A stretch of 64,000 nucleotides of DNA from an uncultured Succinivibrio sp. (GTDB lineage: Bacteria; Pseudomonadota; Gammaproteobacteria; Enterobacterales; Succinivibrionaceae). Both the position numbers and the translations under genes were made by a program. How positions within the stretch are numbered: position 1 is the stretch's first letter; every line of letters begins with the position of its first letter. Below are positions 1,292-9,029 of this stretch, piece after piece. The notes under the pieces were generated by a model that saw only the letters and a program-made list of their open reading frames with translations, searched no databases and was not told the origin of the DNA. The stretch is from the NCBI GenBank assembly GCA_902785325.1, contig CACZXZ010000009.1, positions 55,132-119,131 of the forward strand, read 5' to 3'.

Positions 1292-3559
1292 ATGATTAGA
1301 TTTATTGTTAAAAGAGACGGTCGTAAGGTATCTTTCAATGAAGATAAGATATCTAACGCAATAAGAAAAGCTTTAATTTCTTCACACCCAGATGATAAGT
1401 CTACCTCAGCTTCAGAAGAACAGTTAATTGAGAAATTAACAAGACAAGTAGTTTCTGAAATTGAGAAAGAAAATTTACAAGAGCCATCAGTAGAAAATAC
1501 TCAAGATATTATTGAAAAAGTTTTGATTCAAAATGAAATGGCTCAAGAAGCTAAGAATTTCATTTTATATCGTCAAAACAGAACTAATGCCAGAATTTAC
1601 AATACCGAATTAACCAAAATTTATAGAGATTTAACATCAAAAAGCACTGCTGACATGGATCTTAAGAGAGAAAATGCCAACATTGATGCTAATGCCCCTA
1701 TGGGATTGATGCTTCGTTTTGGTTCTGAAGGTTCAAAAGATTACGTAAGAAGATATGTTTTAAGACCAGAACATTCAATTGCTCATTCTAGAGGTGATAT
1801 TCATATTCACGATCTAGACTTCTACATGTTAACAATTAACTGCTGCCAAATTGGTCTTAAAGATCTATTTAAGAGAGGTTTTAGTACCGGTCACGGTTTC
1901 TTAAGAGAGCCTCAATCTATTCAATCAGCTGCTGCTTTATGCTGTATTGCTATTCAGTCAAATCAAAATGACATGCATGGTGGTCAGTCTATACCATTAT
2001 TTGAGTACGATTTAGCACCTTATGTTGCAATTTCTTATTCAAAGCACTTATGCAAAGTAGTATGCATTTGCTTAAGAAATGATGATGCAAAAGTTGATGA
2101 CTTAAAAGCTTACTGTAAAGAGATTTATGCTAAGTTTAATACATGTCTATCAGATGAGACTCAAGCACTTATTCGTAATAAAGTAATTGAAGTTTTCAAG
2201 AGAGAAGATCCTAATAAAGATCATCAAGCTGATGTTGATTACGTATTAAGTGAGGCAATTAAGCTTACAGAGCGTGAAACTTATCAAGCTATGGAAGCTT
2301 TAATTCACAATTTAAATTCTATGCAATCTAGAGCTGGTGCTCAGGTTCCATTCTCTTCAATCAACTATGGTACTGGTACTATGCCAGAGCATAGAATGAT
2401 TATGAAGAATGTTTTATTAGCTACAGATGCTGGTTTAGGTGGTGGTGAAACCCCTATTTTCCCTGTTCAAATTTTCAAGGTAAAAGATGGTGTTAACACT
2501 AAGAAGGGTGATCCAAACTTTGATCTATTTGAATTAGCTTGCAAGGTATCTGCTAAGAGATTATTCCCTAACTTCTCTTTCTTAGATGCTCCTTATAATG
2601 CTATGTATTACAAGGAAGGTCATCCTGAGACTGAAGTTGCTTTAATGGGTTGCCGTACTAGAGTTGTATCAAATTATTTTGATAAGACAAAGGAAGTAAT
2701 TCCTGGTAGAGGTAATTTATCCTTTACTACCATCAATTTACCAAGATTAGCTATTGAAGCTCATGGTTCTATTAGTAAGTTCTATGAATCTTTAGATGAG
2801 CTAATTTACATGGTATTTGATCAATTGATGGATAGATTCAAGATTATTGCTAAAAAGCAGGTACTAAATTATCCATTCTTAATGGGACAAGGTGTTTGGA
2901 TTGATTCTGAGAGATTAAATCCAGAAGATACCATTGAAGACGTAATTAAAAATGGCACTATGTCAGTAGGCTTTATTGGTTTAGCTGAGTGTTTAGTAGC
3001 TTTAATTGGCAAACACCATGGTGAAAGCAAGGAAGCTTTTGATTTAGGTTATCAAATTCTAAAATACATGAGAGATATCTGTGACAAGCACACTGTTGAT
3101 ACAGGCTTGAATTTCTCATTATTCTCAACTCCTGCTGAAGGTTTATCAGGTAGATTCGTAAAAATTGATAAAAAGCTATATGGAATCATACCTGGTGTAA
3201 CAGATAGAGAGTACTATACAAATAGTTTCCATGTTCCTGTTTACTATGAAATCTCTGCTGCAGAGAAGATTAGAATTGAGGGACCTTTCCACGAATTGTG
3301 TAATGCAGGTTCTATTTCTTATATAGAAATGGATGGTGATTTAACTAAGAACATTGAAGCCTTCGAAAAAGTTATTCTTTATATGAAGGAATGCGGCGTA
3401 GGCTATGGTTCTATCAACCACCCAGTAGATCGTTGTCCTGTATGTAATTACGTTGGAATTATTGGTGATGTTTGCCCTCGTTGTGGAAGACGCGATGGTG
3501 AAGGTGTAAGCATCGAGAGATTAAGAAAGTTGGGTGTAGGTTGCATCTGCACTGGTTAG
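1292..3559 (+). CDS. nrdD: Anaerobic ribonucleoside-triphosphate reductase, large catalytic part lacking a normal glycyl-radical tail
   Basis: Class III ribonucleotide reductase makes deoxynucleotides from NTPs without oxygen. Residues 1-95 form an ATP-cone regulatory domain (start MIRFIVKRDGRKVSF). The 10-stranded barrel follows, with NSMQSRAGAQVPFSS near residue 343. The C-terminal zinc site CPVC...CPRC is near 718-735. The protein then ends VSIERLRKLGVGCICTG instead of the family's RVxGY glycyl-radical motif with its usual tail. An intact copy of that tail is encoded separately 34 bases downstream. The remnant RKLGVG looks like a decayed copy of the motif without the tyrosine. The start is the first ATG before the ATP cone; the ribosome-binding site is weak. 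It opens an nrdD-glycyl domain-nrdG operon. No clear NrdR box was found upstream. Confidence 0.95.
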   Translation: MIRFIVKRDGRKVSFNEDKISNAIRKALISSHPDDKSTSASEEQLIEKLTRQVVSEIEKENLQEPSVENTQDIIEKVLIQNEMAQEAKNFILYRQNRTNARIYNTELTKIYRDLTSKSTADMDLKRENANIDANAPMGLMLRFGSEGSKDYVRRYVLRPEHSIAHSRGDIHIHDLDFYMLTINCCQIGLKDLFKRGFSTGHGFLREPQSIQSAAALCCIAIQSNQNDMHGGQSIPLFEYDLAPYVAISYSKHLCKVVCICLRNDDAKVDDLKAYCKEIYAKFNTCLSDETQALIRNKVIEVFKREDPNKDHQADVDYVLSEAIKLTERETYQAMEALIHNLNSMQSRAGAQVPFSSINYGTGTMPEHRMIMKNVLLATDAGLGGGETPIFPVQIFKVKDGVNTKKGDPNFDLFELACKVSAKRLFPNFSFLDAPYNAMYYKEGHPETEVALMGCRTRVVSNYFDKTKEVIPGRGNLSFTTINLPRLAIEAHGSISKFYESLDELIYMVFDQLMDRFKIIAKKQVLNYPFLMGQGVWIDSERLNPEDTIEDVIKNGTMSVGFIGLAECLVALIGKHHGESKEAFDLGYQILKYMRDICDKHTVDTGLNFSLFSTPAEGLSGRFVKIDKKLYGIIPGVTDREYYTNSFHVPVYYEISAAEKIRIEGPFHELCNAGSISYIEMDGDLTKNIEAFEKVILYMKECGVGYGSINHPVDRCPVCNYVGIIGDVCPRCGRRDGEGVSIERLRKLGVGCICTG

Positions 3560-3593
3560 TTGTTTATTGATATTACTTTGAGGTGTGTTATTT

Positions 3594-3752
3594 ATGCAAA
3601 CAAGATTACATGCTAGAAATGGAATCGTAGGCACTGGTGTTAAATTCGAAAGAATTAGAAGAGTTACCGGTTATTTAGTAGGTACTCTAGATCGCTTTAA
3701 CGACGGTAAGCGTGCTGAAGAAAGAGATCGTGTTAAGCATTTAACTGTTTAA
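3594..3752 (+). CDS. Stand-alone NrdD glycyl-radical domain, 52 residues
   Basis: A short gene starts at ATG 3594, preceded by a good ribosome-binding site (TTTGAGGTG at 3578-3586), and ends at TAA 3752. Its product reads FERIRRVTGYLVG at residues 22-34, followed by DRFNDGKRAEERDRVKHL. This is the glycyl-radical motif and terminal helix that normally finish NrdD, with the radical glycine in VTGY at about residue 30. It lies between the large NrdD gene, which lacks this tail, and nrdG, which encodes the activase that would install the radical. I infer that it docks on the large polypeptide as a separate chain, by analogy with the GrcA (YfiD) spare part of pyruvate formate-lyase. Its first 18 residues (MQTRLHARNG onward) have no counterpart I recognise. 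Confidence 0.85.
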   Translation: MQTRLHARNGIVGTGVKFERIRRVTGYLVGTLDRFNDGKRAEERDRVKHLTV

Positions 3753-3755
3753 TTT

Positions 3756-4286
3756 ATGGAAGACGTAGATTATTCTTTATTAGATAAAACTACTGTTAGA
3801 ATTGCTGGGGCTGTTGGCGAATCAATCGTTGATGGTCCTGGTATTAGATATGTAGTGTTTACTCAAGGTTGTCCATTCCACTGTAAAGGTTGTCATAATG
3901 TACAATCACAATCTTTAACAGGTGGATTAGATGTTAATCTACGTGTTCTTTACGATGAAATAAAATCCAATCCTCTAGTTAGTGGCGTTACTTTCTCAGG
4001 TGGTGAACCTTTCATTCAACCAGAGCCATTAACAATTTTTGCTAAAATCTTAAAAGCAGAAGGCTATTCTATTTGGGCCTATACTGGTTTTACATACGAT
4101 AAACTTATTACTGATCAAAAACGATTAAAATTACTAGAATATGTAGATGTTCTTGTTGACGGACCTTTTGTTTTGTCATTAAAATCACTTGATCTTGATT
4201 TTAGAGGTTCAAGTAATCAACGTTTAATTAACGTAAAAGAGACTCTTGCAAAAAATTCAGTAGTTTTAATGGAAGGTTATAAATAA
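3756..4286 (+). CDS. nrdG: Anaerobic ribonucleotide reductase activating protein (radical SAM)
   Basis: NrdG is the radical-SAM activase that abstracts hydrogen from the NrdD glycine to create the glycyl radical. The 176-residue product has GPGIRYVVFTQGCPFHCKGC near residues 27-46, containing the CxxxCxxC cluster motif, and VSGVTFSGGEP near 76, the SAM-binding GGE motif. Length is slightly above the usual 154-170. It begins 3 bases after the stop of the separate glycyl-radical gene, so the two are almost certainly co-translated. In this organism its substrate would be the detached small chain or the complex of both NrdD parts. Confidence 0.95.
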   Translation: MEDVDYSLLDKTTVRIAGAVGESIVDGPGIRYVVFTQGCPFHCKGCHNVQSQSLTGGLDVNLRVLYDEIKSNPLVSGVTFSGGEPFIQPEPLTIFAKILKAEGYSIWAYTGFTYDKLITDQKRLKLLEYVDVLVDGPFVLSLKSLDLDFRGSSNQRLINVKETLAKNSVVLMEGYK

Positions 4287-4298
4287 CCTATAGTCTAG

Positions 4299-5495
4299 TT
4301 GGATAAAGTAACTGTATGTAGCTCATGTGACTTAATAGTTAAACTTGATGAGCATGATCAATATTGTCCTCGTTGTGGAAAAAAATTACTTTCCACTAAA
4401 AATCCTGTAAATAGTGATATTGCAGTAGTCTCTGTTAGCGCCATAATTTTTCTTATTATTAGCATTGTAGAGCCTTACATGTCCATAAATTCCATGGGCT
4501 TAACAGCTAATATGTCTTTACTCTCTATAGTGGATATTTTAGAAAAACAATGGGGTGGACTACTTTATTGCTTTCTATTTTTTACTTTTTTTGCACCTTT
4601 ATACGTATTAGTTACTATCTTTTGTACTTGTGGTTTGAAATTTAAACCAAATGTATTAGTTGGAAAGATTTATTCCTTCAATCATAAGATGTGTATGGTT
4701 GATGTATTTATCTTAGGTATCATTGTAAGCTTAGTTAAGCTTACTAGTCTTGCTGAGGTAGTATTTTATACAGGCTTTTATACCTCTTTCATTTTCTCTA
4801 TCTTGCTTTTATGGTGTTGTATTAACTATAAACCTGAAAAATTATGGAATGAAATTAAACCTCAAGAAAAAATTGATTTAAATGTAGGTGATAATGCAAA
4901 AGATCAGCAGGTTAAGTGCTGTCATGAGTGTGGCTACATATATAAATCAACTAATGCTGTAGATACCTGTCCTAGATGTAAAGCTAAAAACGAATATAGG
5001 ATTTCTAATAGTATTGTTAAAAGCTGTTGTTTACTAATAGCTGCATTAATTTTTTACTTACCTTCAAATTTGTACCCTGTTATGTATACTGAATTTTTGT
5101 TTAGAACAACAGGCTCTAATATCATTGATGGTGTAGTTGCAATGTGGGAAATGAATTCTTACTTTGTTGCTATAGTAATTTTGGTAGCCTCCATATTTAT
5201 ACCTGCGTTTAAGATTTTATCGCTAGGCTACATACTTTATGTAAGTTCAAAGGCAAATGACTACAACAAGCTTAAGTTATCAAAACTTTATCGTTGTGTG
5301 TTATTTATTGGAAGATGGTCATTGATTGACGTTTATGTAGTTATCATTATGTCTTCTATTGTTAGAATTGGTGGAATTTTAACTATTTATCCAGGCTTTG
5401 CGATTGTGTGCTTTTGCAGTGTAGTGTTGATAACTATATTTTCAGCTGAATCATTTGATGAAAGGTTAATTTGGGACGATAAAAATGAAAAGTAA
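4299..5495 (+). CDS. pqiA: Paraquat-inducible protein A, inner-membrane component
   Basis: PqiA is the inner-membrane partner of the PqiB lipid-transport tunnel. The 398-residue product has two homologous halves. Each starts with a zinc ribbon: CSSC..CPRC near residues 8-26 and CHEC..CPRC near 206-226. Each half then carries about four hydrophobic segments, for example around residues 40-65, 90-115, 240-260 and 283-308. The start is TTG at 4299, chosen because the first CxxC begins only seven residues in and no ATG precedes it; no strong ribosome-binding site is visible. It lies 12 bases after nrdG and overlaps pqiB by 11 bases. Confidence 0.88.
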   Translation: MDKVTVCSSCDLIVKLDEHDQYCPRCGKKLLSTKNPVNSDIAVVSVSAIIFLIISIVEPYMSINSMGLTANMSLLSIVDILEKQWGGLLYCFLFFTFFAPLYVLVTIFCTCGLKFKPNVLVGKIYSFNHKMCMVDVFILGIIVSLVKLTSLAEVVFYTGFYTSFIFSILLLWCCINYKPEKLWNEIKPQEKIDLNVGDNAKDQQVKCCHECGYIYKSTNAVDTCPRCKAKNEYRISNSIVKSCCLLIAALIFYLPSNLYPVMYTEFLFRTTGSNIIDGVVAMWEMNSYFVAIVILVASIFIPAFKILSLGYILYVSSKANDYNKLKLSKLYRCVLFIGRWSLIDVYVVIIMSSIVRIGGILTIYPGFAIVCFCSVVLITIFSAESFDERLIWDDKNEK

Positions 5496-7044
5496 TTTAA
5501 ATTTGAACAAAAAACATATTTCATTTTATTGGTTTGTACCTTTATTAGCTTTAATAATAACAGCAAGTTTAATTTGGCAAAATTCCTTTAATAAAGGTGA
5601 ATTAGTAAAGTTACATATTGCAGAAGCTACTGGAATTGAAATAGGAAAAACTTTAGTTAAGTTTCATTCAGTTCCTGTTGGCTTAGTTGAGAATGTAGTA
5701 TTAAATGATAGATTAGATGGAGCTGTAGTCTCCATTAGAATGAATCCAAATACTGATAAATTGCTAAATGAAGACACTAAATTTTGGGTAGTTAAACCTA
5801 CCATTCAAACTAATAATATTTCTGGTCTAGAAACCATTTTATCTGGTGTTTATATTCAGTTGAGTAAAGGTAAATCTTATCATTACTCAAGTGAGTTTTA
5901 TGCTGTAGATAAAGCTCCTATTTTTTCTGATGAAAATACTGAGTATATTCAATTAAATCTTATTGGCTTAGGCAGTAAAGTTATAAAAAATGGTGTTCCT
6001 ATCAATTATCACGGATTTCAAATTGGTGCTATCGAAAGTAACAACTTTGATGGTAATTTAGGCAAGGTAGTTTATATAGCAAAAATTAAAAAGAAGTTCG
6101 CTTATTTAATTGATACCAACTCTGTTTTTTGGATTGATTATGGCATCAATATGACCTTTAATACCAATGGATTCAACTTCAATATGCAAAATCTTGATAA
6201 TTTGATTTTAGGTAGTATTAGTGTTGATAACCAATCTAAATTAAAAGGCAGGCAAATCCAAAATAATGACAAGTTTGATCTCTATGCAAACCAAGCTGAA
6301 GCAAGTTTAAATAAAGATAGTGATTCTCTTGAATATGTAGTCTTTTTAAAACACGGTATTCAGAATTTATCAGCAGGTAGCGAAGTAAATTTTAGAGGTA
6401 TTACTGCTGGTCGTGTATCAATAGTACCTTTCTTTGAAAAAGAAACAGATAAATTTGATGTAAATAAAGATATTCCAGCTCTTATTAGCATTAGCGTACC
6501 TTCTAAAGAAAAAAATGCTATTCAGTATAAATTTGATAAGTTACTAAAACAGGGGCTATTGTGTGCTAATGTAGATTCGAAATCATTTATTTCCCCAGGT
6601 AGTGTAATTAACTTAAAATCAGATACTAAAGCAAAATGCTTTACAAAAACCACTAAATTTAGAGGAATAAGCGTCATTCCTGTAGTTGATTCTGTTTCTT
6701 TGACTCAAGAGTTAAATACCTTTTCTCGTAAGCTAAATAAGCTTGATTTAGACAAACTTTCAAACAATTTAAATACTTCTTTAGATTCTCTAAATAAGAC
6801 TATCTTGTCTGTAAATGAGGTTGTGTCAGAGCTTAAGAATAAGGGTACTATTTCAAAACTAAATTCAACCATTGAAAGCTATGATGAGAATTCAAAGCTT
6901 TATAAGTCAATAACAGAACTATTAGATAAACTAAATAACAATATGAATGAATTATCCCCAACTATTAAAAAGTTAGGACAAAAGAGTAATTCATTAGTAT
7001 TTAGTGGTTCAGATGATAAAGACGTTGAACCTTCAGTTCGTTAG
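5485..7044 (+). CDS. pqiB: PqiB, MCE-domain intermembrane transport protein
   Basis: PqiB forms a periplasm-spanning tube of stacked MCE rings for phospholipid traffic between the inner and outer membranes. The 519-residue product has one N-terminal membrane anchor (about residues 15-31). Three MCE repeats follow: one begins near GELVKLHIAEATGIEIGKT, one near YIQLNLIGLGSKV, one near YVVFLKHGIQNLSAGSEVNF. The last 120 residues are a predicted coiled helix rich in N, L and S, the C-terminal needle region of the family. E. coli PqiB is 546 residues. It starts inside the end of pqiA. Confidence 0.92.
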   Translation: MKSNLNLNKKHISFYWFVPLLALIITASLIWQNSFNKGELVKLHIAEATGIEIGKTLVKFHSVPVGLVENVVLNDRLDGAVVSIRMNPNTDKLLNEDTKFWVVKPTIQTNNISGLETILSGVYIQLSKGKSYHYSSEFYAVDKAPIFSDENTEYIQLNLIGLGSKVIKNGVPINYHGFQIGAIESNNFDGNLGKVVYIAKIKKKFAYLIDTNSVFWIDYGINMTFNTNGFNFNMQNLDNLILGSISVDNQSKLKGRQIQNNDKFDLYANQAEASLNKDSDSLEYVVFLKHGIQNLSAGSEVNFRGITAGRVSIVPFFEKETDKFDVNKDIPALISISVPSKEKNAIQYKFDKLLKQGLLCANVDSKSFISPGSVINLKSDTKAKCFTKTTKFRGISVIPVVDSVSLTQELNTFSRKLNKLDLDKLSNNLNTSLDSLNKTILSVNEVVSELKNKGTISKLNSTIESYDENSKLYKSITELLDKLNNNMNELSPTIKKLGQKSNSLVFSGSDDKDVEPSVR

Positions 7045-7052
7045 GAGTAATT

Positions 7053-7571
7053 ATGGCAAAGTTTTCATTAATTATATTAGCAAGTATGATATTTGCTCTT
7101 AATGGATGTTCTTCTCAAGTTGTTAATTATGATAGGTATTCTCTGATAGAAGATGTTAGTGCTATATCAATTCAAAGTAATTACAACGTTGAAGTAAGCC
7201 TTAATGAGATCTTAAATCAACCTGGCATTGTTTTGAAAACTTCTGATGTCTCTTTGCGTTCTGCTAATAAACATCTATGGTCTTCATCCCTAAGAAGTCA
7301 ACTTGAGTCAATCTTTAAAGATGTTTTGTATAAAGAAAATTTTGCTAAAAATACTTCTTTTGCAATTTATGTAAATAAGTTTAACGGGGCTCTTGATGGT
7401 ACAGTAGAAATAGATTTATCCGTTGCTGCTTTCAAAAATAATAAGCAAATTCTCTTTAAAAATTACGTAAGAAAGGGAAAACAAGATGCTAGTGGATATG
7501 ATGCCTTGGTGATTAAATTAAAGGGCTTCTATAAGGAAATATGTAAGGAAATAGTGGCTGATATTAGATAG
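7053..7571 (+). CDS. pqiC: PqiC-type outer-membrane lipoprotein (ABC-type transport auxiliary family)
   Basis: A 172-residue lipoprotein. The signal MAKFSLIILASMIFALNGC ends in a lipobox with the acylated cysteine at residue 19. The mature part, about 150 residues, has the spacing of the PqiC/YmbA family, which anchors the PqiB tube at the outer membrane. Sequence similarity to other PqiC proteins is weak by eye, so the name rests largely on position directly after pqiB and on the lipobox. The ribosome-binding site TAGGAG lies 8 bases before the ATG. A strong hairpin follows the gene. Confidence 0.8.
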   Translation: MAKFSLIILASMIFALNGCSSQVVNYDRYSLIEDVSAISIQSNYNVEVSLNEILNQPGIVLKTSDVSLRSANKHLWSSSLRSQLESIFKDVLYKENFAKNTSFAIYVNKFNGALDGTVEIDLSVAAFKNNKQILFKNYVRKGKQDASGYDALVIKLKGFYKEICKEIVADIR

Positions 7572-7655: not shown

Positions 7656-9029
7656 CTATTTGCCAATACAGAAAGTACTAAATATCTTACCTAGAATGTC
7701 ATCTGAGGTAACTTTTCCTGTAATCATTCCAAGATAATCTTGAGCCTGTCTAATTTCTTGAGCACATAGCACAAGATCACCTGTTTGAAGGATCTCTTTA
7801 GCGTTAATGATATATTGATACGCTTTTTCTAGATTGGTTAGATGACGTCTTCTAGCAATAAATACACCTTCTACAGGCATAATTCCTAAGGCATCTGCTA
7901 ATTCATTTCTTAATGAATTTAGACCATCTTCAGTCTTAGTTGAGGTAAAAACTTTCTTTAACTTAGAGAAAGGCTCTTGTTCTAAAAGCTTATTAACTTC
8001 TTTAGATACTGATTTATCTGCTTTAGAAATAATTAACAGAATTCGGTTTTCATCTTTTTCAAATTCTTTAATTTTTTCATAGTTATCAATAGCATCACTG
8101 CCATCTGATGATCCATCTATCATAAATAGTACCAAATCAGCCTTCTTCAACTCCTCAATAGCTTTTTTGATACCAATAGCTTCGATTTCATCTGATGGAG
8201 TATCTCTTATACCTGCTGTGTCAGTTATAACTACAGGAACACCACTTATTTCAATTTGAGCTGTTAATACATCTCTAGTAGTACCAGGTATATTAGTTAC
8301 AATTGCTTTATCAGTACCTGATAAAGCATTTAGTAGGCTTGACTTACCAGCGTTAGGAGCTCCAGATAGAACAATCTTAGCACCTTCATTCAATTTAATA
8401 CCTTGTTTAGCAATTTGAATGGTTTTAGCTGCTAATTGTTCTATAGAGTTTAATTCAAGATCTGTTTTTCCTGATTCATAAAAATCTTCATGTTCTTCAG
8501 GAAAATCTAAACAACCTTCTAATCTAACTCTAAAATTAGTAATCTTGTCAGATAATTCATTTAGGTTAGTTGCAAAGGTTCCTTCTAAGGAAGATAGTGC
8601 AGCTTTTGCAGCACTATCTGAACCTGCTGAAATAAGATCTTCAACAGCTTCTGCAGCTGTTAAATCCATCTTATTGTTTAAAAAGGCTCTTTTGGTAAAT
8701 TCGCCAGGCTCAGCTTGTCTTATACCATCAATAGAGATTACTGCTTCAAGAACTCTTTTTGGTGCAAAATTTCCACCATGTCCTTGGAATTCAACTACAT
8801 CTTCTCCAGTATAAGAATTTGGGGCATTAAAATACAAAACAAGACCTTCATCGATAGTCTCATTTTGTAATTTAAATTTTCTAAAATATGCAATTCTAGG
8901 TTTTGGATCTACATCACCTAGAATTTTAGCTGCTTGTTTTGCAAGTGGACCTGAGACTCTAACTACAGCAATACCACCTCTACCAGGTGGTGTTGCTATT
9001 GCAGCAATGGTATCTTCTATTGATGACAT
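7656..9029 (-). CDS. mnmE: tRNA uridine-5-carboxymethylaminomethyl modification GTPase
   Basis: MnmE works with MnmG to modify the wobble uridine of several tRNAs. The 457-residue product has the N-terminal tetrahydrofolate-binding domain (MSSIEDTIAAIATPPGRGG). The GTPase follows with P-loop GAPNAGKSS near residue 225, switch II DTAGIRDT near 271 and SKAD near 336. It ends with the catalytic C-terminal FCIGK. It is the last gene of the leftward rpmH-rnpA-yidD-yidC-mnmE run. The usual next genes (mnmG, rsmG, parA, parB) are not here; pqiC converges instead. Confidence 0.97.
   Translation of the reverse strand: MSSIEDTIAAIATPPGRGGIAVVRVSGPLAKQAAKILGDVDPKPRIAYFRKFKLQNETIDEGLVLYFNAPNSYTGEDVVEFQGHGGNFAPKRVLEAVISIDGIRQAEPGEFTKRAFLNNKMDLTAAEAVEDLISAGSDSAAKAALSSLEGTFATNLNELSDKITNFRVRLEGCLDFPEEHEDFYESGKTDLELNSIEQLAAKTIQIAKQGIKLNEGAKIVLSGAPNAGKSSLLNALSGTDKAIVTNIPGTTRDVLTAQIEISGVPVVITDTAGIRDTPSDEIEAIGIKKAIEELKKADLVLFMIDGSSDGSDAIDNYEKIKEFEKDENRILLIISKADKSVSKEVNKLLEQEPFSKLKKVFTSTKTEDGLNSLRNELADALGIMPVEGVFIARRRHLTNLEKAYQYIINAKEILQTGDLVLCAQEIRQAQDYLGMITGKVTSDDILGKIFSTFCIGK

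Follow-up and report, generated by a model that had tools for sequence, protein, structure and literature searches.

The window, a 64,000-nucleotide (nt) stretch of an uncultured Succinivibrio sp. (family Succinivibrionaceae; contig CACZXZ010000009.1, positions 55,132 to 119,131), encodes its class III ribonucleotide reductase (RNR), NrdD, in two open reading frames (ORFs) of 755 and 52 amino acids (aa) that are followed by nrdG, all on the plus strand (Table 1). We consider it highly probable that the two ORFs specify a functional two-chain enzyme in which the small chain supplies the radical loop in trans. The split is apparently obligate here rather than a matter of repair only, and split NrdD would represent a new variant of class III RNR.

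The Pfam profile NRDD (562 positions) is divided between the two chains without a gap, positions 1 to 532 falling on the large chain (618 bits) and 533 to 562 on the small chain (32.6 bits; cut-off, 26.2), and the whole profile is matched by the pair together, not by one chain. A preliminary description of this DNA had proposed that NrdD is split into a large chain and a detached 52-residue glycyl chain; the exact division of the profile and the recurrence of the split in 34 of 49 genomes of the family bear this out. The NCBIfam profile PRK07111 (746 positions) extends over positions 1 to 716 on the large chain and 710 to 744 on the small one, an overlap that we read as a decayed motif ending the large chain. 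Residues 18 to 50 of the small chain align with residues 707 to 739 of the P. copri NrdD chain in PDB (E value, 4e-7), its sole match there at E values up to 10, and the spacing makes Gly26 the counterpart of the P. copri radical Gly711 (numbering of the paper). A C-terminal radical glycine of the RVxGY type on the same polypeptide is missing from the large chain and is found only when the pair is taken together. Among Pfam glycyl-radical families, the small chain matched none besides NRDD at E values up to 1, PF01228 included; it may act like GrcA, yet it is not a member of the GrcA family.

Residues C184, C454 and N475 are invariant in 35 aligned large chains. C718, C728 and C731 of the zinc site are likewise invariant in the alignment, and C715 is replaced by Asp in relatives outside the family. 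The zinc-site and formate-type residues of an NrdD are thus present, as judged from sequence alone, and a NrdG match adjoins the pair. Because the formate-type active-site residues are kept, the usual chemistry would be expected, with the glycine coming from the partner, and because the zinc site is kept on the large chain, the cut falls inside the glycyl radical domain. The two ORFs use different reading frames. As had been described, the motif and tail lie on a separate gene directly before nrdG, with a putative ribosome-binding site of its own (GAGGTG).

Table 1. Features of the split nrdD locus, in window coordinates
Feature	Position	Strand	Remarks and basis
nrdD large chain, 755 aa	1292..3559	+	ATP-cone, barrel with radical-acceptor Cys454, formate-type residues and zinc site; without radical-glycine motif
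Zinc-site cysteines C715, C718, C728, C731 (on large chain)	3434..3484	+	Sequence, alignment
Putative decayed glycyl-motif remnant VSIERLRKLGVGCICTG with Cys-x-Cys pair (pair at 3542-3550)	3506..3556	+	Tail comparison; dN/dS about 0.13
GAGGTG, putative ribosome-binding site of the small gene	3580..3585	+	4 of 6 against AGGAGG; 8 nt before ATG
Separate small chain (52 aa) bearing the glycyl radical loop and the C-terminal tail	3594..3752 (ATG at 3594)	+	Profile and PDB alignment; dN/dS about 0.05
Gly26 codon, predicted radical glycine	3669..3671	+	Alignment with P. copri NrdD radical loop
nrdG, radical S-adenosylmethionine activase	3756..4286	+	TIGR02491 above cut-off

The family survey covered 49 genomes (completeness of at least 85 requested). 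Split NrdD was found in 34 of them, representing 8 genera, with the small gene directly beside the large one on the same contig in all 34; in G001 the large chain is broken across two contigs. Another 12 genomes from 6 genera (g5, g6, g7, g8, g10 and g11) have in its place an E. coli-type fused NrdD (matched only over positions 107 to 562 in G023), two (G005 and G007) gave small hits only, and one (G016) gave nothing. The NrdD type of the window is therefore split in every family genome that has it (34/34), and an uninterrupted NrdD of this type, which would have spoken for a local artifact, was not found among the 49 genomes. None of them holds a split NrdD together with a complete fused one. 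Genome G019 encodes, besides its split NrdD, a second NrdD-like frame (C4:9882-10844) of 513 aa and 36% identity that lacks the C-terminal end. That the fused E. coli type occurs in 12 family genomes, none of which has stand-alone copies of the small gene, hints at a replacement, and the pattern suggests that one NrdD type replaced the other within the family.

The genome of the window is 97.4% complete in 101 contigs and contains one NrdD large chain; the second full-length NrdD that could have made the pair redundant was not found there. No class I or II RNR (PF02867) was detected in this genome in a search in which 11 of 14 control genomes were positive, nor in 12 of the 19 split-bearing family genomes searched, among them G014, which is a single contig. 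Within the genus, the small gene has a ratio of nonsynonymous to synonymous substitution rates (dN/dS) of about 0.05, compared with 0.13 for the tail of the large chain and 0.06 for the 200 codons before the tail. These are pairwise values, calculated as ratios of means from 47, 39 and 46 usable pairs of 78, respectively, and they are rough since the mean dS exceeds 1. The small gene is, on these values, under purifying selection. A sequencing or assembly error, or an operon in decay, might be suspected in a genome of 101 contigs, yet such an explanation is barely credible when the same split is present in 34 of 49 family genomes, including the single-contig G014 and Succinivibrio dextrinosolvens DSM 3072 (L061), when the small gene appears to be maintained by selection and when the pair encodes the sole RNR found in the genome.

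Translation of the two genes was considered at 78 split loci, which hold 69 different small sequences, with start codons chosen by rule. The intergenic gap varies from 1 to 345 nt (median, 63), all three relative frames are used (31, 24 and 23 loci), and a match of 5 or 6 of the 6 letters of AGGAGG precedes the small gene at 62 loci; the site in the window matches at 4. A NrdG match lies within 1.5 kb downstream at 68 of the 75 split loci that have at least 700 nt of downstream sequence. The varied gaps, the use of all frames and the AGGAGG-like sites make frameshifting or read-through unlikely as a general rule. In one relative (L023), a lone TAG at 3742-3744 stands between two in-frame genes, as would suit synthesis of the pair as a single product, whether through programmed frameshifting, read-through of the stop or translational bypassing. 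We nevertheless hold production of a single polypeptide to be very improbable, given the spacing and frames above and the many solo small genes that have no adjoining large gene. Spacing, frames, AGGAGG-like sites and conservation led us to reject both frameshifting or bypassing and assembly error.

The large chain was also said to end in a degenerate copy of the motif region that looked to have lost its function, and the tails of split chains agree with this. Scored against the fused motif, 34 of 47 nonredundant tails, including that of the window, do better than 95% of shuffled versions of themselves, and in 36 the offset is the same; since all these tails share ancestry, the shuffle tests are not independent. 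At the best offset, the radical-glycine column is occupied by V in 15 tails, L in 9, P in 7, K in 5, M in 4 and other residues in fewer, with G in 2, so that 45 of the 47 have another residue in place of the radical glycine. Some Clostridia and Mailhella (L070, L097, L071, L140 and L114) retain a near-full-length decayed glycyl domain that can be traced towards the final DRVKH-like stretch. Against these altered tails stands the motif RR[IV]TG[YF]L of the small chain, present in 169 of 170 distinct small sequences (the exception is a fragment in L162), although the search patterns held parts of this motif and some of its conservation is thus built in. The function of the glycyl loop seems to have been kept by a separate copy, the original loop having decayed in situ. 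The arrangement could stem from a local duplication, as the preliminary description had it, after which the first copy decayed, or from the capture of a stand-alone gene; in view of how common and mobile such genes are, we deem capture no less likely.

An alternative hypothesis is that the small genes are mere spare parts, the large chain being active on its own through its altered tail and using the small chain only after damage. The conservation of the large-chain tails within the genus would fit such a role, as would the Gly-Tyr retained in two tails of the nonredundant set (L071 and L076). Stand-alone matches also occur beside intact fused NrdD in four genomes (G068, G069, G070 and G143), where the spare-part reading may hold. 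For split NrdD we nonetheless regard it as improbable that the small gene is only a spare part, as the radical glycine is replaced in nearly all tails and the motif kept in nearly all small sequences, and every split family genome has a small gene adjoining the large one.

A C-x(0-2)-C pair follows the zinc site in 27 of the 47 split large chains, in 26 of them within the last 12 residues. The pair was seen in none of 11 fused chains and in 4.8% of random windows of equal length from the same chains, and it recurs in separate split clades. In five of the 170 small sequences, it is instead the small chain that bears such a pair: those of the Butyricicoccus loci L097, L098 and L099 and of the solo genes L197 and L222. 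The C-terminal pair of the large chain might be redox active, bind metal or serve as a lock for the small chain.

Beyond the family, comparison of the small chain with genome contigs yielded at least 593 stretches and at least 562 relatives. The best 80 of these at least 562 relatives comprised 55 split, 13 solo and 12 fused cases, and their record titles name Succinivibrionaceae, Desulfovibrionaceae, several Clostridia families and Bacilli/Mycoplasmatota. Two further counts did not start from the small chain. In the class of G062, which contains the Desulfovibrionaceae, 22 of 70 genomes are split, the seed included; the large chain of G415 matches to position 556 there, and the small gene of G397 is on a different contig. 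In the Clostridia class of G061 (74 genomes), a single split genome (G095) was found among the 73 non-seed genomes, and G143 has a stand-alone match alongside a fused NrdD; the split is rare in this sample. Subdoligranulum variabile OY725842, deposited as a plasmid, carries a complete operon with a 759-aa large chain, a 53-aa small chain and an nrdG-like gene. The distribution of split NrdD is patchy across taxa.

A tree was built from 47 split and 26 fused large chains (73 in all, 8 of the fused ones forming a distant outgroup), with the sequence trimmed after the zinc site, using a quick method with Shimodaira-Hasegawa-like approximate likelihood ratio test (SH-aLRT) support only. On this tree 10 changes between the fused and split states are needed, at least 6 of them forced by branches with 95% support, compared with 21.7 when labels are shuffled; the count does not separate gains from re-fusions, and the sampling favors split cases.

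The genome of the window carries two further small genes, at 4793-4975 of L141 and 1514-1681 of L142. The former adjoins a TrbI conjugation gene. The neighbors of the latter, on the chromosome, are a Zn_protease gene (PF05618) and a 7TM_transglut gene, and both flank a solo gene in five genus genomes (L142, L146, L149, L153 and L159), with 48 to 81% identity to the L142 genes; this result is drawn from 13 genus loci of 8 genomes. A similar third gene lies on the opposite side of the solo gene in four of these five. Two or more small genes are present in 27 of the 34 split family genomes, and a solo small gene was found in none of the 12 fused family genomes. The four genomes with stand-alone matches beside a fused NrdD have, judged from profile range and frame length, stand-alone copies together with an intact full-length enzyme, as in the GrcA arrangement. 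Of those copies, the sequence itself was read for G070 only (L127), which has an extra N-terminal part.

That extra part belongs to a second architecture, in which an N-terminal part of about 50 aa precedes the glycyl tail (L120, L105, L127, L220, L227, L231, L234 and L239). The N-terminal parts of L120, L231 and L220 had no Pfam match, and at L120 the extended glycyl gene directly follows a split large chain. Pfam, NCBIfam and PHROGs contain no model specific to the small chain, which is matched there only through full-length NrdD models. By sequence, the small chain is a member of a family of stand-alone NrdD glycyl proteins.

Small chains are also common on predicted-viral sequences. In IMG/VR, a relative is encoded in 215 of 246 pattern-matched stretches, and the best 80 loci (81 places) comprise 78 solo, 2 fused and 1 split case. 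Once L218 (the end of a fused gene) and the L162 fragment are taken out of the solo places, 76 stand-alone ORFs remain (68 distinct), and 63 are shorter than 120 aa from stop to stop. Three predicted-viral stretches (L183, L191 and L238) combine a large chain that lacks the radical-glycine motif with a stand-alone small gene elsewhere on the stretch. A PHROGs scan of ten neighbor genes at 8 predicted-viral loci revealed phage-type neighbors at 6: terminase and endolysin (L230), endolysin (L183), a Mu-type transposase (L240) and tail-type genes (L166, L221 and L228). The same scan gave only a methyltransferase among the neighbors of L192 and no match for those of L175. Matches at E values up to 0.01, fused ones included, occurred in 15 of 50,697 phage records and 29 of 72,556 plasmid records.

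In the cultured Eggerthella phage EL753P1 (OP172808, L255), the NRDD match of nrdD ends at position 533, and LAGLIDADG and weak intein matches lie inside the gene. In the sequence as deposited, the detached glycyl segment (6964-7169) changes frame immediately ahead of the radical glycine; it is annotated only as a 42-aa hypothetical protein. From these matches, the split nrdD of EL753P1 appears to hold an intein.

One could suppose that the small proteins of phages and solo loci have no part in the repair or supply of NrdD and act as decoys or inhibitors, blocking the radical site in the host enzyme or titrating NrdG, given that the copies are tiny and that many are on predicted-viral contigs. 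We find this unlikely, as the radical glycine and its flanks are kept, which an inhibitor would not need; the search patterns, it should be noted, contained part of this motif. We postulate, as a hypothesis to which we would give an even chance, an interchangeable system in which mobile glycyl-radical proteins of about 50 aa, borne by phages, conjugative elements and the chromosomes of anaerobes, plug into NrdD and supply or renew its radical; hosts would repeatedly have become dependent on them and lost their own loop, and phages would bring copies for deoxynucleoside triphosphate (dNTP) synthesis with the host large chain.

Elsewhere in the window, matches to PqiA, MlaD (pqiB-like) and MnmE lie downstream of nrdG at 4299-5495, 5485-7044 and 7656-9029. 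Upstream, a minus-strand frame at 1-1049 resembles what we take to be earP.

The split can be set beside several known systems. Class I RNR also places the radical on a polypeptide separate from the catalytic one (NrdB and NrdA), and it differs from split NrdD in radical, fold and activation. The two chains of the window have, in the same order, the ATP-cone, barrel, finger-loop Cys, first-strand Cys, formate-user Asn, zinc site and loop (RITGYLVG) of P. copri NrdD (PMC11226230; PDB 8p23 series). In that enzyme the loop belongs to the same polypeptide, whereas here a 52-aa protein of its own carries it and the main chain terminates in an apparent decayed remnant. GrcA/YfiD and T4 Y06I, the spare parts of pyruvate formate-lyase (PFL), are likewise stand-alone glycyl domains for a larger glycyl radical enzyme, one of them phage encoded (PMC8683613); the small chain differs from them in matching NrdD rather than PFL, in its size (about 50 aa, against about 14 kDa) and in being apparently obligate. 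Phage nrdD genes in pieces have been described too, and those covered in PMC3653736 are interrupted by introns or inteins or show unexplained fragmentation in single phages, unlike the two independently translated genes considered here, which are cut after the zinc site and are common in some bacterial groups. In the open-licence literature searched, outside of which most subscription literature falls, we found no description of split bacterial NrdD or of NrdD spare parts. The RNR phylogeny of PMC9531940 excluded sequences shorter than 400 residues, which would hide the small chain there.

We propose that the large chain would provide the ATP-cone, barrel, thiyl-radical cysteine and zinc site, and that the 52-aa chain would bring the radical loop (RRVTGY) and surface tail in trans. 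NrdG would install the radical on Gly26 of the small chain, and the loop would enter the barrel beside Cys454, so that the chains would assemble and carry out catalysis jointly. According to PMC11226230, the glycyl radical domain of P. copri consists of the zinc site, a buried loop with the radical Gly711 and a surface tail, and the whole domain becomes disordered or ordered with the allosteric state; a domain that already orders and disorders in this manner makes a detached loop a plausible step.

After cleavage by oxygen, the small chain might be exchanged, as GrcA/YfiD is for PFL, and mobile and phage copies might serve the host large chain. This GrcA-like logic of a replaceable part, already suggested in the preliminary description, is made stronger by the additional stand-alone genes present both in this genome and on predicted-viral contigs. 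In the genome of the window, PF01228 matches a full-length PFL-like frame of 752 aa, and no stand-alone match to this family was found; the spare-part strategy therefore seems to be used here for NrdD and not for PFL. The obligate split would have arisen once a separate copy made the original C-terminus dispensable, and the two-part enzyme may descend from a GrcA-like spare part for NrdD. Likely benefits of a detached radical part would be cheap replacement after oxygen cleavage and control of activity through the supply of a 52-aa protein.

Several points weigh against a two-chain enzyme. The evidence for joint catalysis is comparative throughout, and a 52-residue chain would have to bind tightly enough to hold a buried radical. 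Thirteen of the 47 tails have no significant resemblance to the glycyl motif. The loci were collected by similarity to the small chain, which biases the set toward split and stand-alone cases and conserved motifs. AlphaFold gave the large chain alone a mean predicted local distance difference test (pLDDT) score of 84, falling to about 54 in the zinc region and tail (residue 711 onwards) and low in a few loops; in a model of the hypothetical L023 read-through product, the small region was left unplaced, with pLDDT of about 28 to 50 in the joining and small regions. The alignments behind these models were shallow (48 and 35 rows), such that the unplaced region neither supports nor refutes the assembly.

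If the proposed two-chain assembly is correct, split NrdD would be, so far as we have searched, the first glycyl radical enzyme with its radical residue on an obligate separate subunit, and this in an essential enzyme. PMC8683613 names GrcA/YfiD and Y06I as the only validated spare parts and allows for others, including ones for glycyl radical enzymes other than PFL; the system described here bears on that explicit open question and could be tested with three small genes. The two-part enzyme appears to have evolved repeatedly from a one-part ancestor, with seeming intermediates still visible, and the phage-borne copies, if they act as proposed, suggest control of host dNTP supply by phages.

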